A DNA stretch of 64,000 nt from Fragilaria crotonensis (Eukaryota; Bacillariophyta; Fragilariophyceae; Fragilariales; Fragilariaceae), in the NCBI GenBank assembly GCA_022925895.1, contig JAKSYS010000295.1:1-64000 (forward strand). The letters run 5' to 3'. A model generated the notes under the pieces. The model had not been told where the DNA came from, searched no databases, and saw nothing but the letters and a program-made list of their open reading frames with translations. A program made the position numbers and the translations under genes. Below are positions 9,052-59,996 of the stretch, one piece after another. How positions within the stretch are numbered: position 1 is the stretch's first letter; the number at the start of each line of letters is the position of its first letter.

Positions 9052-12000
9052 ATGAAAGGCCTTAAGCGTTTGATACCTCAACGAAAGAAGAAGAATGCCA
9101 GCAGCGACAGTAACGACAATATCACTGAGGCACTATTTCTCAACGAGGATGACCCTTCTGCGCATCGTCGCCACAATGTCACGGAAACGAATATGGAACC
9201 AGCTGCGCCCTCTCCTGATTCAGAACCTGTTAGTCGATACACTACGGTGGACGAAGATTACGATCCTTCGCTGGCATTCTTGGCACGCGGCAACGATGAG
9301 ACTACGTCATTCGGTGAACAAGCACACGAACTGTCCTCATGGCCAGAGGACCCGATAAGTATTCCAGAACAATCGTTTTCGACTCAACTCAACGGGGCCA
9401 AAAGGAAACTTTCCACTGGGAGTACGCAAAGTGATGCAACGTTTGCGAATGCCTTCGATAGCGCTTCACTCGTCATCCAATCCTATGCAGATGTCCCCCT
9501 CTTGGAGCAAACCAAACTACCTCGCGGTGGTGTCAGTATGGAAACGAAAGCTGTGGGAAGAGTGCAGGTACGCGGCGGATGCTGTCCACAGGATTGCATT
9601 ATTATTCTTGCTGCTTTACTCAACCATCTCTTCGCGCTACATCATGCCTCATTCTTTTTTCACAGTTTGGTATTCCGCCTGAAACTATCAAAGACAGCAT
9701 GCGCCTCGGATTGTCAGTCCCAGCGGTGTACATTGTTCCAGTGGAAAGATTTTGCCGAGAGATGGGGCCTGCGTTGGGCGTGAACCTCGCTGAATTCGAA
9801 TTCCTGCCTATTTCAACTTCTTCATTCACAAAAAGTTTGCACCCTAGTTGTGGATTCCGAAGACGCTGAACAAAACATTCGACGAGTCTTCAGTGAGACT
9901 CTTTTGGGTCCTGCACAATTTAGACGAGAGGTTAATCCCATTGCCTACGAAGAAGAAGATTTTGCTCCAGACTTTCCACGTGACGCTATTCCGAACTTTC
10001 AAAAGGAGCTAGAGTATTTCAGAATTATGCCTGATGGCAAGGAGCTCGTTCTCGAAACTCTCTTGAACTTTCGTCATTTTGAAATGCCAGGAGAGACCGG
10101 TGTTCATGAAAACCTAGGTGTCCCACCTCCTCTGGACTATTGGAACACGGGAGATCACCAACAAAGACCTGGCTCGGAATACGATGACGGAAAAGATACC
10201 GATGAGTTGGACATGAGCTTCAATCTAGATTCTTCGGAAGTAGATCAGTCAAAGGAGGTGTCGACAATGACCAAGATGCAATTAGGGCAAAAAGCACGTT
10301 GGAAGTATTCTCAGGCGCGTTGGATTGGTGAGTAGAGTGCGGAAGTTGATATGGCCTGTTTCGTGTGATGACCATATTCTCATAGAACTGTGTAGGTGAT
10401 GTTGCGACAGTGTGGCCATCTGACGCTACTCAACAACAAATCGCGGCACGGACATGCAAGCGCGTCGAGATTTTCAAGATGCCAGGAGGCACGGAGTACA
10501 TTCTGCACGATATCGACGAAAACAACCACATAGTGGGAAAAGCTAGGTTTTCTGGTCATGTCAAGGTTTCCGAGTCGATGGGAGTAGATGGTTTTGGGGC
10601 AACATCTGAAGTCGATGATACTGGAGATGAGGATGGGGATGACCAGGACACGGACGATGCTGATTCGGATACTTCAGAGCTGCCAGACATATTATTTGAA
10701 CGGAGGACACTTCCTCCAACGTTCAATCCTCCATCCTTTGGCGTTACCATTCTTGGAAATTCTCATGGTTTTGATAAGAGTGGATCAGTCTCTGGCTACG
10801 TTCTTTGGATCAACGGACGCGGTGTTATGATTGATCCACCACCATATTCGTCCGCCACCCTGGAACGTGAGGGGATTCGACCGAGAACAATTGTTGGTAT
10901 CATATTGACGCATTGCCACGCTGACCATGACGCAGGTGCCTTTCAAAAAGTCTTGACGGGCTCACCCGTGGTTGTCATCACCACGCCAACGATCTACAAA
11001 AGTTTTATACGAAAATATGCAGCTTTGTCGGCACTAAGCCCTGCTCTCCTGCGTCACAGTCATCGTCACAAGCCAGCAATCATCGGGAGTCCACTTCGGT
11101 TTCAGGGCGCCACGTTCCACTTTACCTACACTCTACACACTATTCCTTGCGTTGGGTTTCGTGTGGACTGGAGAGGGCGGTCAATGGTCTTCACCGGTGA
11201 TCACTTCAACTTCCCCCCAGCAATAGACAAGTTGCAAGCAAGTGTAAGTTTGACTAGCGTTGCGCTCCAGTAATGATGTTTTTCACTCAGCAGGTTTTTT
11301 TTTTCGCAGGGCGTGCTTTCCAAGGCACGAGCTGATGATTTGCGAAACCTTCCACTTCAGGACACTGACTTACTCCTTCACGAAGCTGGGGCTCCCCCTA
11401 TTCACACCCCACTCGATGTGCTACTCAAATTGCCCCAGCGTGTGAAAAGAAGAATGTATGTTGTCCACACGTCAGCTCTACCCGAGGGTTGTGAACTGCG
11501 GGTTGCGCCAACTGGAACGGCCGGGACGATTCGACTCGACCAGGTCCAAAAGGCATCTGGTGTCGAGCAGCGCGTCCATCATCGAGGCGGGGCAACATCA
11601 AGTATGCGAGAAAGCGTCGGTCGCGGGGATGATTCGTTTCCTGCCTCATGGGGAAGAGCCACTAACGAGTATGAGCCGATTTCCGAAGAAATGATTGCAG
11701 ACTTGAGCTCAAGCGATCCTAGACTCATGACATCATCTTTCGCTCATTTGGCTCTTGCAACTACCCCGACCAAGAACGCTCAGAAAGCTGCACGATCAAA
11801 CTCTTTGCTCGGTACAGATCTCGCGCCACCGCTAGTATCTCTCAGGCCAGCATCAAGCACAGATGCCTGGTTCATTCTCAATTTGTTGAGTGCTGTTCCG
11901 TTCTTGACAAGCCTGTCCTACGCCTCAACGATGGAAGTGCTCGAGACAGCGAGAGTCGATGCGTACTGTAAAGACGAAATAATCGTCCCTGCAGCACGAC

Positions 12001-13623
12001 GAAACCAAGTGCTTTGCGTTGTTTGGGAAGGCACGTGTCGAGCGAGCTAAAGGCACGACTCGAATTGGAACTGGCGGACGAAGAATCGCTCCTTTGCTTC
12101 CTGTCCCGGAAATGGATTGGCAAGGTATTAATGGTGCCGTGTGGCATGCTGGGGACTGGACTGGGCCAATCGCTCTGCAACCCGAAAAGCATCTTAGCGG
12201 TGACAGCAATTTCGGGACGTCGCATGATGTAGTTGCCATGTCGTCGGAAGGAGTTAAGGTGGGATTCCTAGGTTGCTCGTGTCGCTCGTTTTGTGTGTCA
12301 TGCTCTCACCAATATGCTTTGAACAGGCAATTTCTGTTGAATTCTCGAACTTACATGCGATCCTGAAGAGCGGATCAGCGCTATACCGCAAGTACCTAGA
12401 AAGGCGAAACCTCCAACGTAGGGCTACTGCGTCTCGGCCCTCTAACTTGAAACCAGATTCAACGGCTGGACTGTTAGATGATGCTATGCGGAACTTGAAT
12501 GCTTTGGAATTGCTAGATTGCAACTCTGCAATGCGCAAATTGAGCGCCGTTCAAAAGCGTCACCTTGAGAGTCTTGCAGAGGGGCCGGTATACTTCCAAC
12601 CTGGGGAGAGGCTATGGCGAGCTGGAGCCCCTGTCGATAAGGCATTCGTTGTGGTGTCTGGTACGGCGTCTTTTGTTCCTAGAAGGAGAAACGCTGGCTC
12701 TGTTGGCCTACCACCTTCAAGCATGGGGTCAACGACATCTCCAAGTAATGATTTTCCATCTAAAAGCCGTGATTCTGACGACACGAGCAAGCTTTCGCTT
12801 GGTGAAACGATGCAACGCGATGCTTTGGCTGCCGTTCGCGAATTAAGAATCCCAGATTCAGAGGTTCAAGACTGCGCCACTGAAGATGCGGGGAATGAGG
12901 CTAGTGCAAGGCACTTCCAGTTGGACTCCATCTTCACTCGGCCTGGTGCCGCAGGTCAAGAAAGCGTGCCTTCATCGTTGACGGATGCACATGATTATGC
13001 GAAACTAAGTCGAGGCTTGCAAAAACGCGCTGACATTCTGAACCGAGCTAAAGCCGGAAAGTGTTCGACCGATAAGCATGAGGAGCTTTCGGATGGGGTC
13101 GAAGACGATGATAGTGCGCAGAACCTGGAAAACGTTTTCTTGACCTGGAAACGGAGGACGTTGGACGACACAGTGATACACGGATCATCTTATGTCTCGT
13201 GCTCGACGACGATCGTCTCGAGCTCGATTCGCCAACAAAGTACTGGGACGGTTGTATAGCAGACGCCTTTACTGGAGGCCTTGTCTTTTCCGAGGACACT
13301 TCCTTGGTGATGTGTCAAAAATGGTTGCGCCCCTCCTGTCGATGGATGCTGATTCGGACCTCTTTCCGAACAAAGAAGTTGATGATGGACCGAATTATGG
13401 CTTCGGCGAGAAGATGGAAGGTACAAGGGATGCGTCACTTCGCAACCTCCAAACGGTACAAGAACAGAATGACAGTGAATTCGCGATTGTTCATAGTTCG
13501 ACGCTAACGGCGGGCAAGGATGGATGCGTTGTACTGGTTTTCCTCAAACCAAGTCTTATCCCCTTCCTCGATGAGTACCCTGGTCTGTTGCTTAGTCTTC
13601 TTGGAACTCAGGTCGTGGTGTAG
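9052..13623 (+). CDS. metallo-beta-lactamase fold plus cyclic-nucleotide-binding protein (GbpA/PdeD-like)
   Basis: This appears to be a phosphodiesterase-like protein combining a class II (metallo-beta-lactamase) hydrolase with a cyclic-nucleotide-binding region, the layout of Dictyostelium GbpA/PdeD. Exons are about 9052-9567, 9666-10327, 10396-11243, 11310-12258 and 12327-13623, all with GT-AG introns of 66-98 bp. The metal site HCHADH is at about 10911-10928, and a second ligand region FTGDHFNFPP at about 11190-11220. The binding-domain start (YFQPGERLWRAG, about 12590) and its phosphate-cassette-like part (HFLGDVSKMVA, about 13297) are separated by a long low-complexity insert. The cassette lacks the usual FGE...R signature, so ligand binding is unproven. 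Frame changes, most fitting single-base losses, occur near 9805, 9835, 12035, 13262 and 13292. Cytosolic location is inferred. Confidence 0.8.
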
Positions 13624-21400: not shown

Positions 21401-23488
21401 AAGGTCTCCAGATGCTCGGCAAAGCGATCGGTAGAGTACGGTGGCTACTTCGCAAAGATAAACCCAACGGGAGGAGAGCAGCACCATGATGCTGGCGAAT
21501 AGCAATGGCTCCACTGCAAAATTGGCGAAGAACTGTGCAGCGACACGACATGAGTCGCGAAGCTGTGATAAGGACGTGGCTTCCTTCCGAAGACTGCTTT
21601 GACGATCCAATCCAGTCAACCTGAGCATGATTCCCAAAGATATTTCCTTTCCAGAAACCAGTATCGTTGGGGCCAGAGCCGCGATTGCCTTCCAGGCACT
21701 TTCACGAGCGACGGACATTCGCGACATGGTCGGACAGTCATTGACGTACAGATTCGGCTCCGAGAAAGAATCAAAGACTCGAAAGACAAGTGCAGAATAA
21801 GTCTCTTGAGAAGGGAGTGATACCTTCTGAGATGTAGCCGCTTTCTCTAACAGACTGGGGAGAGCGCTTAGAGTTGAAATCTGAATTGCTGAGGACGGAA
21901 AGTCGAGAAACCGAAGCATTTGGTTCCAAATTTCACTAGTATTCACTGGCAGCTGTTGTCCACGTTGAAGTTCAAGAGGGAAGAGACGCACGAGAGGCAC
22001 CGCACTCGACGAGACCGACGAATCCACGCGCAAGAGTGCTTCTCCCAGGGGTTCTATACAAGATGGGAACGATGCACCCATTTGAGTGGCGACCAACAAT
22101 ACCTGTGCTGCAACCCCTACCACATCATCACATTGATCCTTCAGAGCGTTGGTGGCAGTTGTTGTAAATTCCAAGTTATTCTTCTCAACTACAACAAGGA
22201 ATTGCATTGCTAGCAAGCCACCATAGCGAACTTCCCAACTTGTCGCATGGGTCGCAAGAGTTACAAGAATCTTGCGACATGCCTGTTGGACACGATCCGG
22301 CGCTAGATCGTAGAGCAGAGCAACGACCTGAGCCGCGGCAAGTCGAACTGGCGCAGTGGCTGCCTCGGAACAAAAGTCGGCAAATCGATCCAACGCCAGA
22401 ACGCACAGGCAGCGCGCAAGAATATCTTGTGGCCATGCACCAAAGGATTTTTCGGTTTTCTCCTTGAGTTTCCACGCGCTCAATAAGCTGGAAATGCCAA
22501 GCAAGGAGCCATGTCTGACATGCCAATGTGGATCGAACATTCGATACAAAAGTTCCGTAGCCAACAACAGTTGTGGGTTCCGATGCGAGATTAAGGGGGT
22601 AGCATCCTGTTGTTTGACCTCTAGAACCAATAGGGCACGAATTGACTTGTCGTCATCCTTGGTATCCTTCACGACAGTTCTGACTTTAGATGAAGCATTA
22701 AGAGAAGAAGTTTTCGCGGGCGTGATAAAATCTTGGGTAGTGATGGTATCAGGCAGCCATTCGTCGACGTTTCCTGTCGCTTGGACTAACCCGCCGAGCC
22801 CCAATCGCTTGGCGAGAATACGTCGTTGCAATTGAATTCGTTGGTGCACGAAATCCGACGAAGATACATCGAGACCATCTAGTCGTGAGTCTTCATCATC
22901 GTCGTGGTCGTAATGTTGCTCTGGTGCAGCCAACAGGTGTCGTCCCCGCTGTAAGACTAGTTCAATGTCTAGGTCTTCCACGGTCAACCACAAATTGGTA
23001 TTCTCTTGCGACAGCAACACCGTATCACATGCCATAAACTCCTCTTGATTCGCTCTTGGCAGGAACTGTGCAACTCCCTGCATGGCCCACTGCGCATGTT
23101 GGCGACACGTCCACGTCTGCCGAATCAACAGGGATAAAAGTCTTCCCAACAAATCCCACAAAACCAGAGGAGACGCTCGTGCCGCCGTATCCTGCAGATG
23201 CGAGGCTGCCATTTGAGCATGAGATGCCGTTCCTTCTTCGATGAGCTTGAGCAAGCGTTTGGTGTGTGGTGTCAGTAGGATCGTTTCAGGATCGCATTCA
23301 GACCGAGATGACCCATTTTCTGTCTCATTAGTAGGTTTTCCGTCTGGATCGACAAAATCTGATTCGCATCGAGCGCGACAACATGGCGAGGCGGAGGCAG
23401 TAGTTGTGATTGTCAATTCGTTTTCACTTCCGTCGATACTATGCACATGCGGAGATCGTAAACGAGGTCTCTTGCGAGAGGACGACAT
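18402..23488 (-). CDS. BTAF1: MOT1/BTAF1-type TBP-removing ATPase, C-terminus frame-broken
   Basis: This is a Swi2/Snf2-family ATPase that strips TATA-binding protein from DNA, acting in the nucleus. The first 1430 codons from ATG 23488 are one unbroken exon: a charged N-terminus ([16 protein letters not shown]), a long HEAT-repeat region, then the ATPase core with Walker [13 protein letters not shown], the Walker B variant [12 protein letters not shown] and motif [23 protein letters not shown]. The helicase C lobe continues as [37 protein letters not shown] and motif [22 protein letters not shown]. Three frame changes lie near 19205, 19075 and 18755, each consistent with a single-base indel. 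With them set aside the protein is about 1690 aa, slightly shorter than human or yeast (about 1850). It shares a 0.7-kb divergent upstream region with the MinE gene. Confidence 0.93.
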
Positions 23489-24203: not shown

Positions 24204-24792
24204 ATGCAACCACCGAGCAGTATCGGCACATTCATTAACAGGCGCGTATAGTGCTGCTTCGTTCGCCACAGAGGAGCTTCAACAACAATTGCATTGATCG
24301 CAATCAAATCACCATCAGCCAACCCACGGACAACTGGAGTGCCAGACACCCTCGTATTTCCTGGTACCGTTCTCAAACGCCCGCGTAACTGTGATTCCTC
24401 AAGATAGACTCAGAATGTCGTTTCTGGGAAAGATGGGCAAAATATTTGCTGGAGCTGCCGCTGCTCCAACCACCGCATCGTCAACAAGGTCCGTTGCTAA
24501 GGAGCGTCTGAGCGTCATTTTAGCTTCACAACGAGGGTCAGAACTTCTCGAAGGAGTCGATATGGACGCCCTCCAGAGAGACGTCATGCAAGTTGTCAAG
24601 GTAAGGCACTGGTTCCCTCTCTCAGATGAATTCCTTTGTTGTTCCATCTTAACGATCATTGCCCTTGTAGAAGCATATACAATCTGTCAAGAATGAAGGT
24701 CCTGTACAGATGAGTTTCAACTATGAAGGGAAGTTAGCTTGTTCGAAATGTCAGTGGAGTTGGACGCTCCGGTCCGCGCCGAACTCATGTAA
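24204..24792 (+). CDS. minE: MinE division-site factor, probably mitochondrial
   Basis: MinE drives Min-protein oscillation that places the division site in bacteria and is kept in some eukaryotic organelles. The conserved part starts at ATG 24415 (MSFLGKMGKIFAG) and contains the MinE core AKERLSVILASQRG, then ALQRDVMQVVK, a 70-bp intron (24601-24670), KHIQSVKNEGPVQMSFNYEG, and the terminal beta strand SLFEMSVELDAPVRAELM. Upstream, from ATG 24204, one or two frames give MQPPSSIGTFINRR and VLLRSPQRSFNNN, which resemble a mitochondrial presequence. Frame changes lie near 24255, 24385 and 24733. The stop is TAA at 24790; this also lies in a perfect donor (gtaagt), and splicing to the AG at about 24893 would give the same ELM end followed by TGA. 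A plastid location is possible. Confidence 0.82.
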
Positions 24793-24990: not shown

Positions 24991-27915
24991 CTATACCGCC
25001 TTGATCTTCTTCGAAGATTCGTCCGACAGAGATCCGTCGCTGGGATGGGTCGTCTTTCTCTTGCGACTTTCCAACGGAGTTACCGCCGTTTGCAAGAAGA
25101 CAGAGTCGCCGCTGTTCCGTTCCGTGTGCTCAGATGCAATCTTGGATCCTTGCGTTGATACAGTGTCATTAAACGAAAAAGCGGAAGCAGCGCTCGAGCC
25201 CAATGGCACAGACTCTCCTCCGGAACGAATCCCATCAGGCGTGTCGTGCATACCCAGGGCCTTGGCTGCCAAAACATAAAACTTCCGGAGAACCGAGCTG
25301 AGCGAGGCCGAGCCCTTGAAACCGGCCAGCTTCGCCTTGGTAGCTTCAGGACTATGGGGACAAGTTTCCAAATGTAGGCGTTGAAACTCGCGAACTGACT
25401 CGTAAATTCCATTAATCGAGTAGGAAATGCCACTGCTGTTCCCTGGCAGCGTCCTCTCCTTTGCCATCGCACAATGCAAGCAACGGATTCCAACCTGTCC
25501 AATGTGGATGGGGTACTTACGATCCTCTCGCGCTATCTCCACGTCAGCAGGTGTGGCACAAAACTTCCAGATTCCGCCGAATGAAGCAGTCCATGTCGGA
25601 CAACCACTCCTTGTCTTCGGAAATGGCTAGAAGAACACGAGAAGATGGCGACGCCGGTGATGCTAGGTTCGAAGAATCAGCGAGTGCTTTAGCGGCATCC
25701 ATGGTGGATCGCTCAATCACAAGCGTGCCTTCGTCTGGGTCGCATGGTTCAGTCTGTCCACTGTCATCCGTCTGGTGTTGCCCCTTCCGGGACTCTTCGA
25801 TTTTGGAGCAGCATTCTCGTCGTTGGCGCTTCTGCCGCCTTCGTCAGTGCTCAGGGATTCACTGAGAAGTTCCGCGTCTCGTCGTGGAGGCGCCTCCACA
25901 TCCTTCGAAAGAACACTTTTTGCGAACCTCGAGGTAAGCGTGCCATTTGCTCAGGGTGTCTGCGTTTAAGCTCCATGAGTGCGTTTTTAATTGGAACCGG
26001 ACACCGTCTACATTTCAGGACGTGGCCGGGAATCTCGGCGAAACTATTGGCCAGACGATCGACATTGCTCCAGAAGAACTTCCGAGAATTAGGAGCTTCG
26101 GAACAGTGCACACACTGCAGTCCTCCGTAGCCCACCTTGATATTCTCACGTTTCCCCCCTCTCGTCTTGCGATCAGCTTCTGAGAATCGACAAAGTCGGA
26201 GCTGCCTCATCAAGTGATAGAAGTAGTCTGTCAATAGTAGCTTGTCCTCGTCAAGTACAAGCGATCCTCTCGATTCGCGTTCAGTGGGGGTGGATCCGAA
26301 ACGCTGTTTGTCTGAAGCTACCAGCGCATCCACGGCCTTGATTATTTCGAGATCGTGGGCCTCTGATAGCATGCCTGCAGCTGGAGGGCGAGGTGGGGGC
26401 CGAGTCGCACGATGCGGCATTGGCTCCCTTTCCATGAGTGGATGAGGGGGGTACATCGTATTTGATTGATCAGCCGACGGCGGTGGTGGTGGCATGTAAG
26501 GAGGATATGCACCTTCGGGATGGGGGAAAGGAGGCGCATGCCCAGATGCACTCCACCCAGGAGGTGGAGGACCCGGTGGATACTGAGGACCAGGAGGATA
26601 GCCGTAAGGAGGCAGCGGCGGTGGCCCATCATAGTAGCCAGGGGGTGGTGGCTGATTGTAGGACCTACAGATGCTCAGATGCTGATCGATGAACTGGCCG
26701 TGCGGAGGTGAGTGACTGGGAGATGACCAAGAGGCACCTGGCTCACGGTATTGTGGATGTACGTGGATGCAATACCGGCAGGCCCAGGATCCATTCATCT
26801 CTTGAAAGTAGGGAAAGTCAGGTGGTGGCATCTCATACGGAGAATGAGGTACGGGCGGATAGCTGTGCGGCGAATCCTGGTGCTGGGCTTGAGGAGTGGG
26901 CGGTTGTTGGGGATCTGGTTGTTGTGCCATTCCTGGAGTGCGAGAATCCTGCGGCGCATCTTGGGCATAATAGCCCCGAAGGGCACTACCATGGGGCTGA
27001 AAGGCAGCGTAGCCTCCTTCTCTCTCCCCTATGGGCGGGTAATTCCGATCGGCGCTCTGCGGCATGAAACTTGCCGGCGGATAGTCGCCTCCGTGGTGTT
27101 TGTTACGCCTCGCAAGAGGCGTGGCAGCAATATCAGCCATCATTTGGCCAACTCTTGGTGGAGGAGCTTGGAACGGAATAGACGCATGTGGAGGACCTCG
27201 AGGTGGCAGCGGTTGGGCATCCATCGGTCGATAGCCACTTTCTCCAACAACAACCCCAGTTTTTGGAGGATACTTGTCAACGAGGCCGATGTTGTCGGCA
27301 AAGTATCTGCAGTGGTCAAGCAATGCCATTTGGCAGCGTTCTTCCTCGCTGGGCTGTCTTCGCTGTTCATGATCTCTTTGCCTCCTGACGGCAGTCGACT
27401 CGCAAACTTCTCTGACCCGAGCGGGTGCGGAGGAGCATTCTGAGAGATGGCGGTCTGACAGCATTTGGATACAAGTGGCCAGGTTTTCCGTGACTTGCGG
27501 ATATAATGTACTGTATGCAGTCCCCGGCAAACAGTGGATGCATCGTATGCCCAACTGGCCCAACGTAATAGATTCCCAGCAGATGCAACGGCGTCTGCAA
27601 CATTTTGATGATCTGCTTCAAACACCTCCAAACTCTGACATGCGGTAAGGTCGGTGATATCCATGCCTTCTCCTTCGCCAGGCTCTAACAATCGGTATCT
27701 TCTCATCTTGAGGGACTCGGCTGCTGAGGCGCGTAGGGAGGCATGATTCCGTAAGGAGGCGACGGTTGTGTCAATACAGCGTTTGGCCGTTGGCGTTTGC
27801 GACAGTCCAGTTCGTGTGCTTTGACTTGTTCAAAGGTTTGAAAGTCTTGCGCACCGCAACAGTCGCAGGACCAGAGTACTGATACAGACCCTGAGTCTCT
27901 AGCCTGCGTGGGCAT
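24991..27915 (-). CDS. multi-module CxxC/HxxxC protein, proline-rich, unknown function
   Basis: Starts at ATG 27915 (MPTQARDSGSVSV) with a C2HC finger-like CDCCGAQDFQTFEQVKAHEL...C. At least three related modules follow, each with a conserved lead (LEVF.A...DV), the signature G-Q-(L/V)-G-I-R-C-x-H-C, a YP/YS segment and a downstream H-x3-C: GQLGIRCIHC (about 27555), a divergent VGYGGLQCVHC (about 26120) and GQVGIRCLHC (about 25495). A fourth, looser CRYCIHVHP...HLSIC lies near 26770. Between them is a Pro/Gly/Tyr-rich tract (about 26350-27000). The C-terminus is basic (SRKRKTTHP, SSKKIKAV), suggesting a nuclear protein. Frame changes, all compatible with one-base losses, occur near 27713, 27577, 25880, 25725 and 25557. 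I know similar modules from diatom proteins but not their function; zinc binding is inferred. Confidence 0.7.
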
Positions 27916-39132: not shown

Positions 39133-42100
39133 ATGGCAGACAAGGCAGTCGCAGATGATAAAGAAGTCAAGCGACGGAAGCAAGTCAAGAAAATGACTAA
39201 GATTTTGTCCCGTGCTTGGGACTTGCCTAACAGCGATCCCTTTCAAGAATGTGCCAAGAAGTCCACTGCTGAAGATGTCTTTGACCTGGCTTCTCTGGGG
39301 GAAAACTTAGATACAGGGATCTACAAATACGGTCGGTCGGGATGGGAAAAGTTTGCAAGAGATATCGGTGGTGTTTACAATCGACACATCGAGAGGTAAG
39401 GGTTTGAATTGGAAAGGCTGCAACGTTCGATCAACAACGACTTCCATCCTGTTGTGCGAACCAAGACGAACCCAGGTGCAAAAACACATATGTTACTTTA
39501 CCTGACTTGAATCTTGTTCTATCCTTTATAGAAAAACGAAGTTCGCACCCATTGCAAGAACACACCGCAATGAAGTTTGCGACATGCTGGGCAAGATTGA
39601 TGAATCTCTAGCCAAACAAGCTACGCAGCATTGCCCTTTCGGGGATGACAGCAAAAAGCGGAAGTCCAATTCTGTTGATGACACCAATCGCCGTCCATCC
39701 AAGAAAGCCGACACCAAAAATGGTGCAGACATGACTGTGGTCGAGCGCGAAGCCAAGGCCATGTCGGATCTTGCCAATTACATTGAAGAGGTTGGAGGTA
39801 AGCGTTTTACAAGTAATCTTTTTGTAACGAACATTGATGCATCTAAGTTTCTGTTCCACGAAAGGGAGGCGCTCGCAGCTTGCTGCCTTCAGTTCACGTG
39901 TCACGAAGAAGAGCGATGGTCGATACGATGTCAATTTTTTCTGTGACAATAGACGATATCGATCTATGGTGGAAGTGGCCCGCTTCCTCAACCTTGCGGC
40001 GCAGAAAGACCAAACAGGGAGAAAGTTGGCCACCAATAAGATCCGTCCATCAAGCTCACGAGATGCGGAAGCGGAAAAGCGAAAACTTCGTAAGGAACTA
40101 GACAAATTCATGAAGTCGCACGAAAAGGCAACAAAAGCCCTTGACGACTTTCGGAACGAGCAACTGGAGAAGCAGTATCCCGTAGATGATGACGTCCTCA
40201 ACGAAGAACTTGCCGAGAAGAGCTCGGAGGATCGTACCATCTCGCCGGCGACCTGCCCAGCTGCTCGAACCCCTGATTTAGAAGGATTCCCAGGTATACC
40301 GGACCACTGCATTGCTGATCTGCTGATGGTGTGGGACTTTCTTTGTACATTTAGTAGAGCGCTCAGTCTTCATCCAATTCAGTTGGATGATTTTGTTGCA
40401 GCCTTGACATTCCGTCCGCCCGAACTTGATGCAACTCAACAACCTCCAGTGTACTCGCAGAAGCCCACCTCGCTCTGTTGAAGCTTCTGCTGTCTGATGT
40501 ATCGAGTGACGACTGGTGGTGGAGCATTCTTGATGCTGATGAGCCGAATCAGAGAGAAGAAGGAGACGTCGCTAGCGCCAACGTTGACCCTTTGATGCCG
40601 GTAATTAGGTTGATTTTGGGCGTTATTGTCCGTCGACGAAGACCCGTTGCTCACATCGAGCTGGTTGCAAGCGCTGGAGGAAGTTCGTGCCATTCACGTT
40701 AGCAATGGCAGACAAATCAAGCAGGTGATCAAGACAGCCTCATCGATAGCGGCGAATCGTTGGGTAAAGGCGTATCTCAAGAAGGCCCTGACTGATTGGA
40801 AACCAGACTTCGCGATGTTCGCCAAACGAGCGGCCGTCTGGTTGATGGATAGAGTTAGGGAGGCAAGACCAGAGTTGTACGGCAGGAAAGTCAACACTAA
40901 GTCCGTAGTGCAACAGCGTACAGCAACTATTGACAGGATTGCGATCCTTATGGCGAAGATGGATGACTCTGGAGACGTTGTCGCAGTCGCCGACCTGGAC
41001 TCAGATGATGAGGATGATTCAGATGATGAGTCTGACGACGAAGACGGGGACACTGGTGATTCGAAGAATGATTCTGGAAAGGCAGAAGTGGACGAAAATG
41101 AAGAGCCTGTGAAGACCGCCATTCCTGAAAAGCCGGTCCCGACACTTGTCGACTTGTTGTTGCCTCCTTCGAAGCCACTTCCTGCCTCAGATCTTGTGAA
41201 TTCATTTGCATGGCCTCAGCTTGCTGGTGCTGCTGTCTGCAGAATCCTTCACGGTTACAAGCATATGAGGAACCTGGTCGATGACAAACTTAGGGATTCA
41301 AAGGGGTTGCCACCCATGTCAGTAGGCGAGCGCAAGAAGAGGGAGTCGGAAGCGTCATGCAGAGTTTCGACAGAGTGCACCGCCGTATTTGACTTCGTAT
41401 GTCCAGCTGAAAGTGCATCGGATCGTTTGACCAGAGGCGGCTGGTATCTCGAGCTCTCAACGGTTGAGAAATTGTGTATCCTCAAAATCTTGGTTGATGC
41501 TGCATACGATACAGTGAAAGTCCATGAAGTCGTTGACTGAACTACAAGCAAAGGCATAGTGCAGTAAAGCCCTTGACGCCGAAGAGCGTCGGGCAAAACG
41601 AGAGGCGCGTGAGGAAGCCGCAGCCGCAGATCAAGCAGCTCGTGAGGCTCTGGCTGCTGAAGCGCGAGAGCAGTTTTTAATCAGAAGAGGAACGAATTGC
41701 GAAAGCTCAATCAAAGAACGAACGAATACTCCTATGCGGTTATCGACGAACTGACTGAAGAAGACATCATTGAATCGACGAGGATAGTAAGGCTGAATAT
41801 GCGGCACTCCCTACGCCTCAAAGCTACAACAAAACTGAGGTAAATGTGATGGTGACGAAGATGCAGGAGCAAGCTGCTTTTGATACTCATTCCGTGGTCG
41901 TGATTAGTATGGAAGAGATCGGCGACAGAGATGACGAAGAGCTCCGCGTGAAGGAAAATGAGCTCAAAACGTTTGACGGTGTTGATGTATTCGAGCTTGG
42001 TAGGGAAGCTTCCCGGAGACTTGATCGTTTGCGACGTGAGATTGAGCAGATCCGTGAATCTGAAGACACAATAGGCGAAGTTCGAGATAGCGCGTTGGAA

Positions 42101-51336: not shown

Positions 51337-54300
51337 CGTTTATAAACGATCAGTTGAGTCGAAACCGAAAGTAAGACAAAATGGCTTCCGAGGATTCGGA
51401 ATCTAACTTTGGGACCACTGTTCGTGCGTTCGCCTTTAACGGCGATGAGACCAAGTTCCGTGCCTGGGAAGGCAAGACACTTGCACTCGCAGCATCTAAG
51501 GGATTTCTACTTGCCCTTACTATGGCCGAAAGAGAACCGGGACTTACGGTTGAAGAGTTCGAGTACTGTGAAGTCCAGGTGCCACGCGCACCACCTACCG
51601 GAGTACCAGCAGGTACGGGAGAGGCGGAGACGCGTGTCGTTGTAACTACAAGACCAACAACTACGGCGGAGAACCGTAAGTACTTGGCTCGAGCGGCCGC
51701 TTGGGCGTATTTGGTCGCGAGCTGTACCGAAAAGGCGTATTCCTTGATTGAGAGGGCAGAGGGTGATCCCTTCCTGGCATGGTCCATCTTACAAGAGAAA
51801 TATATGGCCACTGACGCAGAAGAGAACTTCCCTGATCTGTCTGACTCATTTGCGAACTGCAAGTTGAACGAAACAAAGAAGGATCCTGAGTTGTGGTTTA
51901 ACGACTTGGACCACTTCAATATGAGAATCGGTCGTATCAACAAGAAATACGAGAAGGATGACCTTCAGATGAAGAGTCACATCATGACATCGATGTCCAG
52001 TGGCTATGACTCTGTGGTGTTGAAGTACCGAGGCGAGCTGGCGACGACCCCGCTTGTGAAGTTGCGTAAGGAGATTACGTTGCAGTACAAGGCACTTGTC
52101 AAGGCCGGCTCTAAGAACAAATCGGAATCGGCAATGGTTGCAAATGTCAATAAACACCCGTTTAAGAAGTTCAAGGGCACATGCCGCAACTGTGGAAAGA
52201 TTGGACACAAGGCGGATGAGTGTCGTTCTGCAAAAACCGAAACGGCTGCGACTGTGGACAAAGCCCATGTTACTTGTTTCAATTGTCAAGAGAAAGGGCA
52301 TTATGCGAACAAGTGCACTAAACCTAAAAAGGATAAAACAGCAACAAACAATATGGCCATGTTCGTCGGATTTGCAGGAGTGGAGATCGGGACACCCATC
52401 GCTCAAGCTACAGGGAGCTCCAGTACTGCTTCACGAGGAACAATCATTGATACGTTCTTCGATGACTGGGCCGATGACTCTTGGGATGAGGAACACGGGT
52501 TCGACGATGTCGGAGAATTCCAGCCGTTCTACGCTGACGACACTATTACGGAGGATCCGGTATTTGTGGAACTCGAAGAACCTCCATACGCGGTTGCGGA
52601 GGAGCAGTCGGAGTCGGTCAACGTCATCACAATTGCGGAGGAATTCATTGGATCGGTCGGAGTAGACGGTCAAGAGAGCTGGCTTTTGGACTCGGGAGCT
52701 ACCTGTGGAGTCACGTATGACAAAAGCAACATGACAAATATGCGGGCATCAGACAAAATGATTACAATCGGCAATGGCGCTCAGGTTGCTACCCTTGGAC
52801 AAGGAACGGTATCACTTAAGGATGCAATTGGAAACCTGGTGACTTTGACTGATGTGTACTATGCACCCAAGTTTACTAAACACATCGTGAGCCTTCGGAA
52901 ACTGATCGACGATGATTGGAAGTTGGACAATGCGGATAAAGCTGAGTTTGTCTTGACGGATCCCAATACGACAACAACTGTGCACTTCGAAAGAAATAAT
53001 AATGACCAACTATACTATTTAAGCGGCATACGCGCGTCGGGCCACGACGTTGAAGAAGTACACAGTCTCACGACTAAGCCAGTGACGTTGGATATCAATA
53101 TTGCGCATGGGTTACTTGGCCATCCTGATACTCGCACGGTTAAGGCGATGGCTGCTCGCCAAAATTGGACGTTAACGGGTTCGGTTCTACCATGTGGGTC
53201 ATGTGCCTTAGCGAAAGCACGAGCCAAGGCGGTTCCGAAGACAACGTTGACAAAGGCTAAACATCCGGGAGAGCGACTTTTTCTGGATATTTCGGGGCCA
53301 TTCAGTGACTCGTTGAACTCGAATCGGTACTGGCTTCGCATTGTGGATGACCATACTCGATTCTGCTGGGACAGTTTCTTGCCACGTAAGAGCGGTATCC
53401 ATGTTCCATTGGAGGCGCTCCTAATTGCAAACAAGGCCGCAGGAAAGGCCTGTAAGTACCTGCGGTGTGACAATGCTGGCGAGAACGAATCATACGTCCA
53501 GAAGCTTTGCGCTGAACATGATGTGGTACTGGAAATGACCGCACCTAATACGCCCCAAATGAATGGCGTAGTGGAACGAAGTTTTGCTACGTGTAAAGAC
53601 CGGGCCTTTGCTACTATGTACTGCGCTCGGTTCACATTGGAATCCCAAGGTCTACTATGGCCCGAAGCCATTAACACTATGACAAAGCTTGGGAACACAT
53701 TACCACGTGCAGGAGATACCACGGATCCGTACACGGCATGGTTTGGCGAGGACGCAAAGCCAAACCGGATTTTAGATTACCTACAGCCCTTTGGACGAAT
53801 TGCGTATGTCACGGATCGGACTAAGATCAAGTCCAAGCAGGATGCGAAGGCTTCTAAGTGTGTTTTTGTCGGGTATGCGAATGATCATTCCGGCGACACG
53901 TACAAATTCTACAACCCTGCTACGAAGCATACGATTCTATCACGTGACGTCCATCAATGGATGGAATGGCATGGGCGCATAACGGCAACGGACGACCTGG
54001 CTCTTTTTTGACGAATTAAATAGATTAAAGACGGATTCGATCATAATCCCCTCCTCCCCGGTCATCCCCATCCTGTCTGATACTGACGTCGGCGTGGCCG
54101 ATGACCTTTGGGAGCTTCCAGTTCTGGCACCGCAACCGACTACGGAGGAACTGACTGAAGCACCTGCCAATGTCTTACGTCCTGCGCGGAGGAATCTGGC
54201 TCCTGAATTTGGATCGGGCGCAGTCACTCGAGCTCGTGCTCGTGCGACAACCGCTACCGTCGCCGTGGGTCACAGGAACGAAGACACTGCAAACATAGCG

Positions 54301-56010
54301 ACCGTGGACACTGACGACGTTTCAGAACTACTTGTCATGAATGCCTTGTTGCAGTCGGACCCCCAGGTGGGAGTACCAAAGAACTACAAAGAACTAATTA
54401 AACTTAACGATCCCTCATGGCAACAATCTTTGGATGACGAATTGGATAACTTTTCTGAAACGAGATGCATGGGAATTCATATCCCGGAAAGAGCTACCGG
54501 ACAATCGCAAGACGCTTCACTGCCGATGGATATTCAAGATGAAGACGAACGGATCAAAGAAGTCACGGAGTGTCATCCGAGGCTACGAACAGATACCAGG
54601 CGTAGACTATGTTGAGTCATTCTCCCCGCTTGCTACAAACACTACGATCAAGGTGACAGTGGCTATGACAATGGAACAAATGGTCATCCACAACGATTGG
54701 GTCATTGAAATGGTGGACGTTGAAGCGGCATTCCTGAACGCTCCAGTCGACACTGATGTCTATATTGAATTGCCCGAAGGCTTGAAGGAGCATCACCTCA
54801 AGAAGTACCAGCCCCTAATTAAGTTTGACATTCGGGAAACAATCATCAAGCTGAAGCGAGCCCAGTATGGCCTCGTACAAAGCCCACGACTTTGGATGTA
54901 CACATTTGCGAAGATCCTAACGAAACTCGGATTGGTCCAATGTAAGACAGACCCTTGCCTATTTACCCTTCATGACGAATCGGGCAACCTAATGGCTATA
55001 GTAGTGGTATACTGCGACGACAGCATTATTACAGGGTTCCGAACCGTTGTTGACCGACTCAAGAAAGGAATATCGGGTGCCGTGGCCATTTCGGATCTTG
55101 GAAAGCTGGTACGACATCTCGGCGTGGATTACGAGTTTGGTCGAGACGATTACGGAAATTACATTAAGTCAAGTATGACAGAATACATAGAGTCAATCGT
55201 TCGGGATTTCGAGAAAGACTTAGCGACGACGCTGAAGGACTACAAGACGCCAGGTGCTGCTGTGACTCCCCCTCTACGCTCTACACCAGAAGACGAAATT
55301 GTCCTACATGAGTTGTTTCGGTCGTATGTCGGTCGAGTGATGTTCGCCTGCGGGAAGTCGGAGCCAACGATCTCGAATGCGTGCCGCGAGCTCACCTGCC
55401 ACCTCAATGCTCCCAATGCCACACACTGGACTGCCTTAAAGAACCTCATCGGCTATTTGAAAGGCAAGAGCTTCCAGGGCCTGAAGATGAGAGCGCCAAA
55501 AGACAGGAGAGTGGTCGCCTTCGTGGATTCGGATTACGCATCCGACAGAGGCGACAGGAAGAGTATCTCTGGATACCTTGTCACCATTGGAGGGTGTTTG
55601 GTCTCCTGGCAGTCGAAAAAGCAGTCAGGCGTGACGCTTTCGTCGACTGAATCGGAGTTCGTGGCCATGAGCATGGCGGCGACCGAAATTAAGTTTGTCG
55701 TTTCTCTGTTGACTGAGATTTTTAGAGACCCGCCCATTCTCCCAAGTATTTTGAAGGAAGACAACACGGGAGCGATTTTCATGGCAAAGAACACGGCAAT
55801 CGGACAACGGACAAAACATGTGGACATTCGATATCGGTTTGTTAACGACATGATCCTATGTAAGGAGCTATCAGTGGAACACATCCGCAGCGGCGACAAT
55901 CCGAGTGACTCTATGACGAAAAACCTCCCATTGGCCTTATTTACGAAACATGCGGCGGTCATTTCGGCGGGAAATCTAGGGACATTGTACGATCCGCAGA
56001 ACACGGAGGA

Positions 56011-56537
56011 TGTCGAGAGCTACAGTGCTACTGTCGAGGCTGACGGTGTTACGGTTGAAGCGACCGGTGCGACTGTACCAGTGGCACCGTATACTGTGGA
56101 CGACGGTAGCAATAGCTTCTGTTCTGCTGCTCTCTCGGATGCTGACAAATGGACAGAAGTCACAAGGAAGGCCAAGACTAGGAAGGCTGGAAGACCTCCT
56201 GGCATGCAGGGATCTACTGAGGGATCCCAGGAGGCATCACCCGTGAAGGAATGAAGACTTCACAGGTGTAGAATCTACTGTGAAGTCTGATTTGGTGTCA
56301 GTTCTTCAAGATTAGATTTGTTGTGTGGAACCTACTGGATGAGGTCTTTTGTGGTCTGATTGGAGAGCTTTTCAAGCTCTCATCAGTGATTGAATGATGA
56401 CTTTAGAAGTAGTTTAACAACAGATTAAGCTCACAATTTACAGGAATAGAAAGTGAGTAGAGGATATCTACTGTCACATTTCAGACGAGTATTCATTCGA
56501 GGCTACTGTACGGTTACTACAGTACGGTGATTTAACA
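56011..56537 (+). repeat. 3' LTR of copia element
   Basis: 527 bp, the same ends as the 5' LTR. Its first 240 bases also serve as the 3' end of the element's coding region. Confidence 0.95.
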
Positions 56538-58632: not shown

Positions 58633-59996
58633 ATGGAAGGCCATCTCTACCAATACGACCAATCGCTTTACGCATTTGAAGGTCAGAGTCAGCAGAACCC
58701 TTACCTAGTGCCGTCGGGGTTGGCTACACCACAGAGGGAGGCAGGCGCCGAATACCCAATGCATGGCATCGAATACCCTGGGTTGAATGATGTTATGTGC
58801 GGAAGAGGTTCGTGACGTGCCGACGTTTCAGAATAACTAAATGCGATCATGACATGCCGAAAGTCTGACTCACTTGTTCTATGGTGCTTGCAACAGGCGG
58901 TGGGACCAACAACCACATCGGAAACATTCGTTTTCGTCAGCTAGTTAATGAGCACAAGTTCAGATACCTGGCAGCTTCAAAAGTCGACAAGCCAAGGGTT
59001 GCTATGGAGGTGGTGCACTTGTGGAGATCTCTTGACCCTCCGGGGCGCTACTTGACGAAGACTGATCCCGCTCAGGGTGATGATAGTCTGTGGCACGATG
59101 TCGGCGACAAGAAGGCTCGCGAGAAGGCATCCCAATGCCTACGTGAAAGGACTCCGGATGTCATTCCTTTCGTCAAGCAACTTCAGGAACAGGATAAAAA
59201 AAGGAAGGAAGAGGACAAAACGAAGGACGAAGATAAGCCTCAAAAGCCAGGGAAGAACAAGGCCAATGGCAAGAACAGTGTATCATCGGCCGACGCAGTC
59301 GTGTCTGGTAACGTTACAGACGCATCGGCTGCGAACACCCGTGCTTCAATGCCAGGATCCGCTTTAGCCACGCCCGATGTCACCCATTCAAGTAACTCAC
59401 AGCCTGAGGTTAATAAGTCCCAGAGGGCCAGAGATGTTGGTCGAACTCTTCCGACTGCTGCTGCGCTTATGGAGAATGTTTTCGACGATGAAGACTTTGA
59501 CGATGACGACGATGACACTCTTTCATACGCCACCTATCAAAGACAAATACAGGAGTACTTGGCGTCGGCTAATGCTGATGCTGAGGAGTATTCCATCACT
59601 GACCGATCGATTTTAATGGAAACTATGTCCACCACCTCAAGGGAATGGGTTCAATCATTCCAATCAATCCATAGTGGTCACGACAATGCAAGTGCCATGA
59701 TGATGAGCATCGGAAACTCGCTCCGCGATGTTGATGATAGTGCCGACATGCCCCCTCCCGACAACTTGCCACGATCCGGGTTGTCTTCACTTCGGTCGCA
59801 AAAGATGTCACATGCGGGAAACAACAGCATCTCCATGCTTTCTGACCTCACTGACTTCTCATCTGCTCGGAACAAGAGTTCAAGGTCAGCTAAGTTGCAA
59901 ACCTCAAAGGCACCGAGCAACTTTTCCATGATGTCGGAATTAACCGACTTGTCGGAGGGATTGAAAGATCTGGGACTTCAACGTGGAAACTCCTAG
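58633..59996 (+). CDS. DUF6824-like stramenopile protein
   Basis: Exons 58633-58807 and 58897-59996 are joined by an 89-bp GT-AG intron, giving 424 aa. The start is ATG 58633 (MEGHLYQYDQSLYAFEGQSQ). The conserved domain (about residues 50-150) spans the intron: NDVMCGRG|GGTNNHIGNIRF, then RQLVNEHKFRYLAASKVDKP, RVAMEVVHLWRSLDPPGRYL and ARQ-free basic helix KKAREKASQCLRER. From memory this matches DUF6824, a domain expanded in diatoms with unknown role; its basic, helical nature suggests DNA binding but that is inference. A Lys-rich stretch, an acidic run (FDDEDFDDDDDD) and a C-terminal short motif repeated as SMLSDLTDFS and SMMSELTDLS follow. The frame is intact. It converges with the OCRE/G-patch gene, 110 bp away. 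Confidence 0.88.

Follow-up and report, generated by a model that had tools for sequence, protein, structure and literature searches.

A nuclear, intron-split MinE gene in the diatom Fragilaria crotonensis and its probable mitochondrial role

The window, a stretch of 64,000 nucleotides from the diatom Fragilaria crotonensis, carries a MinE gene on its forward strand at positions 24415-24792. Exon 1 (24415-24600) comprises 62 codons from ATG 24415 and encodes MSFLGKMGKIFAGAAAAPTTASSTRSVAKERLSVILASQRGSELLEGVDMDALQRDVMQVVK, which contains an N-terminal helix (MSFLGKMGKIF...) and the AKERL segment. A spliceosomal intron of 70 nt follows (24601-24670, GT-AG, phase 0, GTAAGG...TTGTAG), and exon 2 (24671-24792) ends with the stop codon TAA at 24790-24792. 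The first part of exon 2 (24671-24730) continues MinE in frame 0 as KHIQSVKNEGPVQMSFNYEG. At the GGG run in 24728-24730 the reading frame of MinE shifts by one base, and the second part (24730-24792) gives EVSLFEMSVELDAPVRAELM and then the stop. With the frame change allowed, the two exons together specify a MinE about 102 residues long.

We take 24415 as the start codon of this gene. It aligns with the start of many extracted bacterial MinEs (MSFL...), whose own start codons were assigned by script, and it has an A at position -3. The intron is present in the 14 best of 15,852 splice-only models, in which the start was fixed at 24415 and zero, one or two introns of 20-260 nt were allowed to run from GT or GC to AG. 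When it is removed, a bacterial MinE profile scores the sequence at 41.4 bits instead of 31.3. Together with the Pfam match of the spliced product, these models bear out the original prediction of a nuclear eukaryotic gene whose MinE core is split by a spliceosomal intron.

The window is eukaryotic. Divergent from the MinE gene and on the same contig lies a gene on the reverse strand (first in-frame ATG at 23488) with an SNF2 domain and DUF3535, which we take on the basis of these domains to be MOT1-like. The window also encodes an OCRE/G-patch protein and a family 2 glycosyltransferase whose sequence suggests a dolichol-phosphate mannose synthase. Further features on the forward strand are a metallo-beta-lactamase-fold protein and, after it, a weak cyclic-nucleotide-binding match that stays below the cut-off (10386-13259), perhaps one gene with introns; an ORF carrying the WHIM1 motif known from chromatin-remodelling proteins (40614-41540); a copia-type retrotransposon whose two ORFs encode gag-type zinc knuckles and the integrase and reverse transcriptase domains (51375-56254); and a DUF6824 protein (58869-59996; PF20710, E 1.8e-23). 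We take the DUF6824 family to be typical of diatoms, and its presence is consistent with diatom DNA; a text search of the literature found no paper naming it. On the reverse strand, two ORFs that overlap (24991-25626 and 25544-25843) resemble, on visual inspection, a single zinc-finger-like gene (24991-25843) with a frame break close to a T run. This break lies some 0.8 kb away from that of the MinE gene, and local homopolymer errors in the assembly may be responsible. Rfam and tRNA scans of the whole window gave no matches.

The gene belongs to the MinE family PF03776. The curated cut-off of 25 bits is passed both by the spliced product without the frame change (39.8 bits, E 4.5e-10) and by the product with it (44.5 bits, covering profile positions 1-67 of 68), so that the clear MinE core seen earlier is confirmed. 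No other place in the window is MinE-like: when the 1,981 six-frame ORFs with 20 residues or more were scanned with a profile built from 56 bacterial MinEs, the best ORF scored 30.3 bits and the next 5.3. The equivalog cut-offs of the NCBIfam MinE models were missed (48.1 of 58 bits for NF001422, the nearest model, 42.0 of 49.3 for TIGR01215, and 34.3 of 108), but these models are designed for bacterial and archaeal proteins, and the equivalog cut-off lies outside the Pfam definition.

In a four-row alignment of the window, Thioclava, Paracoccus and E. coli MinEs, residues A28, K29, E30, R31 and L32 as well as D56 and V60 are invariant. The AKERL segment is the anti-MinCD part of MinE in bacteria. 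D56 and V60 align with E. coli MinE D45 and V49, which we take to have a role in topological specificity. The diatom protein resembles bacterial MinE in its N-terminal helix, the AKERL segment, a helix, and a final strand with E at the LxExxVxL-like place. It differs in being encoded by a nuclear, intron-split gene, in falling below the equivalog cut-off, and in having 27 residues ahead of AKERL, compared to a median of 18 (2 of 87 bacterial MinEs are as long). It is also at most 40% identical to the 80 loci listed of at least 343 confirmed bacterial loci.

Several comparisons show that this MinE is of the proteobacterial type. It leans to NF001422 over TIGR01215 (48.1 vs 42.0) by 6.1 bits, and all ten proteobacterial MinEs scanned favour the same model, by 7.3 to 36.8 bits, so that the lean of the diatom protein is smaller than in any of them. 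TIGR01215 is favoured, by 17.6 to 43.6 bits, by 3 of 3 fusobacterial/clostridial MinEs and by one cyanobacterial-like consensus, which was written by hand and stands in for a real cyanobacterial or plastid MinE. Class profiles gave 49.2 bits (gamma), 47.6 (alpha), 40.6 (beta) and 18.3 (fusobacterial/clostridial); they were made from 41, 18, 26 and 3 sequences, respectively, with beta and gamma told apart by a sequence motif in the script rather than by taxonomy, and are not strictly comparable.

Searches of the bacterial collections point the same way, although the alignment query, which retrieved proteobacterial MinE (80 loci listed of at least 343), uses patterns that favour AKERL and is biased to Proteobacteria. 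In a pattern-free tblastn search of plasmid records (E <=1), 14 of 14 matching records were Paracoccus or Thioclava (Rhodobacterales), with weak E-values of 4e-3 to 0.9; the same plasmid collection also contains enterobacterial, rhizobial and fusobacterial MinE. The class search matched 14 of 142 genomes, 13 of them above the cut-off. One retrieved locus with a below-cut-off match lacks a MinE ORF and was left out. Close relatives were found neither in viral contigs (pattern scan) nor in genome contigs (single-protein query). A search of plasmids and viral contigs with a hand-written query brought up no real cyanobacterial MinE, either among the listed records (10 of 238) or in the scan.

In a tree of the window MinE and 47 of the 104 extracted bacterial MinEs (18 alpha, 10 beta, 16 gamma, 3 fusobacterial/clostridial), a branch supported at 100/98 sets the diatom protein on the side of the Proteobacteria, although its own end branch of 3.51 is so long that the tree program warned that its place is uncertain. 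In the NCBIfam comparison, the protein is nearer to proteobacterial than to fusobacterial/clostridial MinE. The 86 alignment columns leave the three proteobacterial classes unseparated (AU p 0.25 for alpha, 0.23 for beta and 0.21 for gamma), so alphaproteobacterial descent is not singled out. We favour mitochondrial descent as the most probable reading.

The MinE family and mitochondrial Min proteins in heterokonts are already known. Leger and co-workers reportedly described Min proteins in stramenopiles in PNAS in 2015. One precedent is Andalucia godoyi, with mitochondrial MinC, MinD and MinE (PMC7050145). In the heterokont Nannochloropsis, MinC and MinD are predicted to be mitochondrial and no MinE is reported (PMC3499364). 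Partners of the diatom MinE were not seen here. With these protist systems the gene shares its nuclear location and a Min protein of non-cyanobacterial type. Diatoms possess mitochondrial FtsZ genes (PMC4164004), and the genes minD and minE have been lost from ochrophyte plastids (PMC5462543). Table 1 of a survey (PMC4641359) has MinE as N/A for both Thalassiosira pseudonana and Phaeodactylum tricornutum, with MinD in T. pseudonana only. Among the matches listed from the Min literature, in a search largely confined to sources other than subscription journals, we found no report of a diatom MinE.

We consider it probable that the gene encodes a proteobacterial-type MinE that was inherited with the mitochondrion and acts in the mitochondrial matrix. 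With family identity, intron and proteobacterial-type sequence established, we infer the matrix location, the partners and the function. Because diatoms have mitochondrial FtsZ and a heterokont has MinC and MinD predicted to be mitochondrial, a mitochondrial MinE is the most economical reading. The N-terminus from 24415 is free of acidic residues and has a net charge of +3, which would fit import. As evidence for import it is weak, because 5 of 87 bacterial MinEs share these features and 28 of 87 are as amphipathic.

Plastid division is the main competing role, and we regard it as unlikely. In this case the nuclear gene would encode a plastid MinE imported by a signal plus transit peptide. The survey's Table 1 lists MinE for plants, for Guillardia theta (plastid-encoded) and, with a nuclear-looking accession, for the haptophyte Emiliania huxleyi (PMC4641359), and because of the latter a nuclear MinE in an alga with a red plastid is not unprecedented. 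Since chloroplast MinE need not resemble the cyanobacterial protein, as noted in PMC8227023, a sequence not of the cyanobacterial type is compatible with a plastid role. The protein also has a mildly hydrophobic N-terminal stretch (8-residue Kyte-Doolittle mean 1.99), but an equal or higher one occurs in 23 of 87 bacterial MinEs, and no ASAFAP-like motif was seen from the 24415 start by eye and hydropathy. The proteobacterial type of the sequence argues against the plastid, as does the statement in PMC8227023 that MinD and MinE are missing from red algae. The diatom protein shares its family with the plastid MinEs that Table 1 of PMC4641359 gives for plants, cryptophytes and perhaps haptophytes, and differs in that no bipartite plastid signal was seen in it.

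A second alternative concerns the frame break: if the one-base change is real, the gene could be a decaying or dead copy, which we think quite unlikely. Beyond the GGG run, frame 0 reads KLACSKCQW..., unlike MinE, and the last MinE strand is found in the other frame. No single reading frame in this assembly continues through the final beta strand, and no splice-only model yields a whole MinE from the DNA as assembled. With the frame change, in a model built with the intron already included, the bacterial MinE profile score rises to 50.6 bits. A second intron in exon 2 was considered in place of the frame change and dropped, as the best of 7,710 distinct splice-only products longer than 40 residues reached 43.2 bits; an indel, whether an assembly error or a real lesion, is preferred for this reason. 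The simplest account would be one base missing from a short G run.

When the tail beyond the break was replaced, its score was matched by 2 of 5,000 random 20-residue pieces without stops from elsewhere in the window (best 58.1), by 1 of 1,000 pieces in a first run, and by 1 of 1,000 shuffles of the tail itself. Codon usage over 20 codons leans to the shifted frame (+0.23 vs -0.19 bits per codon unshifted). This is a weak test; the 5-95% limits for 32-codon pieces are -0.07 to 0.22 in the MOT1-like gene, which belongs to the training set, and -0.16 to 0.11 in other stop-free stretches. Against a dead copy, the break stands alone at a short G run, MinE sequence is kept on both sides of it, and the stop is placed where MinE should end. 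An assembly indel in a working gene is most likely. The break bears on whether the gene works, and not on its family membership. The original prediction did not mention it: the terminal beta strand is indeed present, as EVSLFEMSVELDAPVRAELM, but lies out of frame with the first half of exon 2, so that the assembled DNA lacks one continuous MinE.

While the identification of 24415-24792 as MinE was correct, the leader in the original gene model was not supported. This leader, described as presequence-like and said to begin at 24204, had served as the ground for placing the protein in mitochondria. ATG 24204 meets an in-frame TAG after 15 codons and joins the MinE frame only through speculative introns, for which there are four GT-AG choices (one with its donor at 24220, three at 24246). 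RSPQRSFNNN, read as a piece of the same leader, begins at 24260 in yet another, third frame. That a spliced leader from 24204 provides a mitochondrial presequence is, in our view, very improbable: the four choices do connect it to MinE, but nothing supports any of them, and ATG 24204 has T at -3. All leader segments have negative codon scores (-0.18 bits per codon for 24204-24245, -0.11 for 24298-24414 and -0.09 for 24319-24414), a weak argument on its own as the first 26 codons from 24415 also fall below zero (-0.03). We rejected the leader as part of the protein on its frames, its speculative introns, its -3 base and its codon scores. It is also unnecessary, because the protein from 24415 already begins like many bacterial MinEs. 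A mitochondrial location is plausible because of the proteobacterial-type sequence and not because of the leader.

A bacterial contaminant or recent transfer can be dismissed as hardly credible, in agreement with the original prediction: although the only relatives found are bacterial, in bacterial comparison collections, the gene has a spliceosomal intron, lies on one contig with the MOT1-like gene and other eukaryotic neighbours, stays at or below 40% identity to the 80 listed loci, and has an end branch of 3.51 compared to a median of 0.3.

Returning to a mitochondrial MinE, a mechanism can be proposed by analogy. Bacterial MinE, which helps to position the division ring, uses its AKERL segment to bind MinD and drive ATP hydrolysis and its N-terminal helix to bind the membrane. 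AKERL, D56 and V60 are retained in the diatom protein. Its AKERL helix would bind membrane-bound MinD and stimulate the MinD ATPase, while the N-terminal amphipathic helix would contact the inner membrane. MinD, and MinC if present, would be cleared from the middle, where a mitochondrial FtsZ ring could then form. A bolder version, to which we give little credence, is that an alga whose plastid is of the red lineage has retained a whole Min oscillator in its mitochondria, with a MinE that has no added presequence and whose bacterial membrane-binding helix at the N-terminus would be both import signal and membrane anchor.

A MinE from a diatom would close a gap in the published survey, at least as its Table 1 stands (PMC4641359). 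We suggest that a small, intron-split and diverged MinE could escape BLAST. If confirmed, the gene would make an alga available for asking whether FtsZ placement in mitochondria still depends on a Min oscillator.
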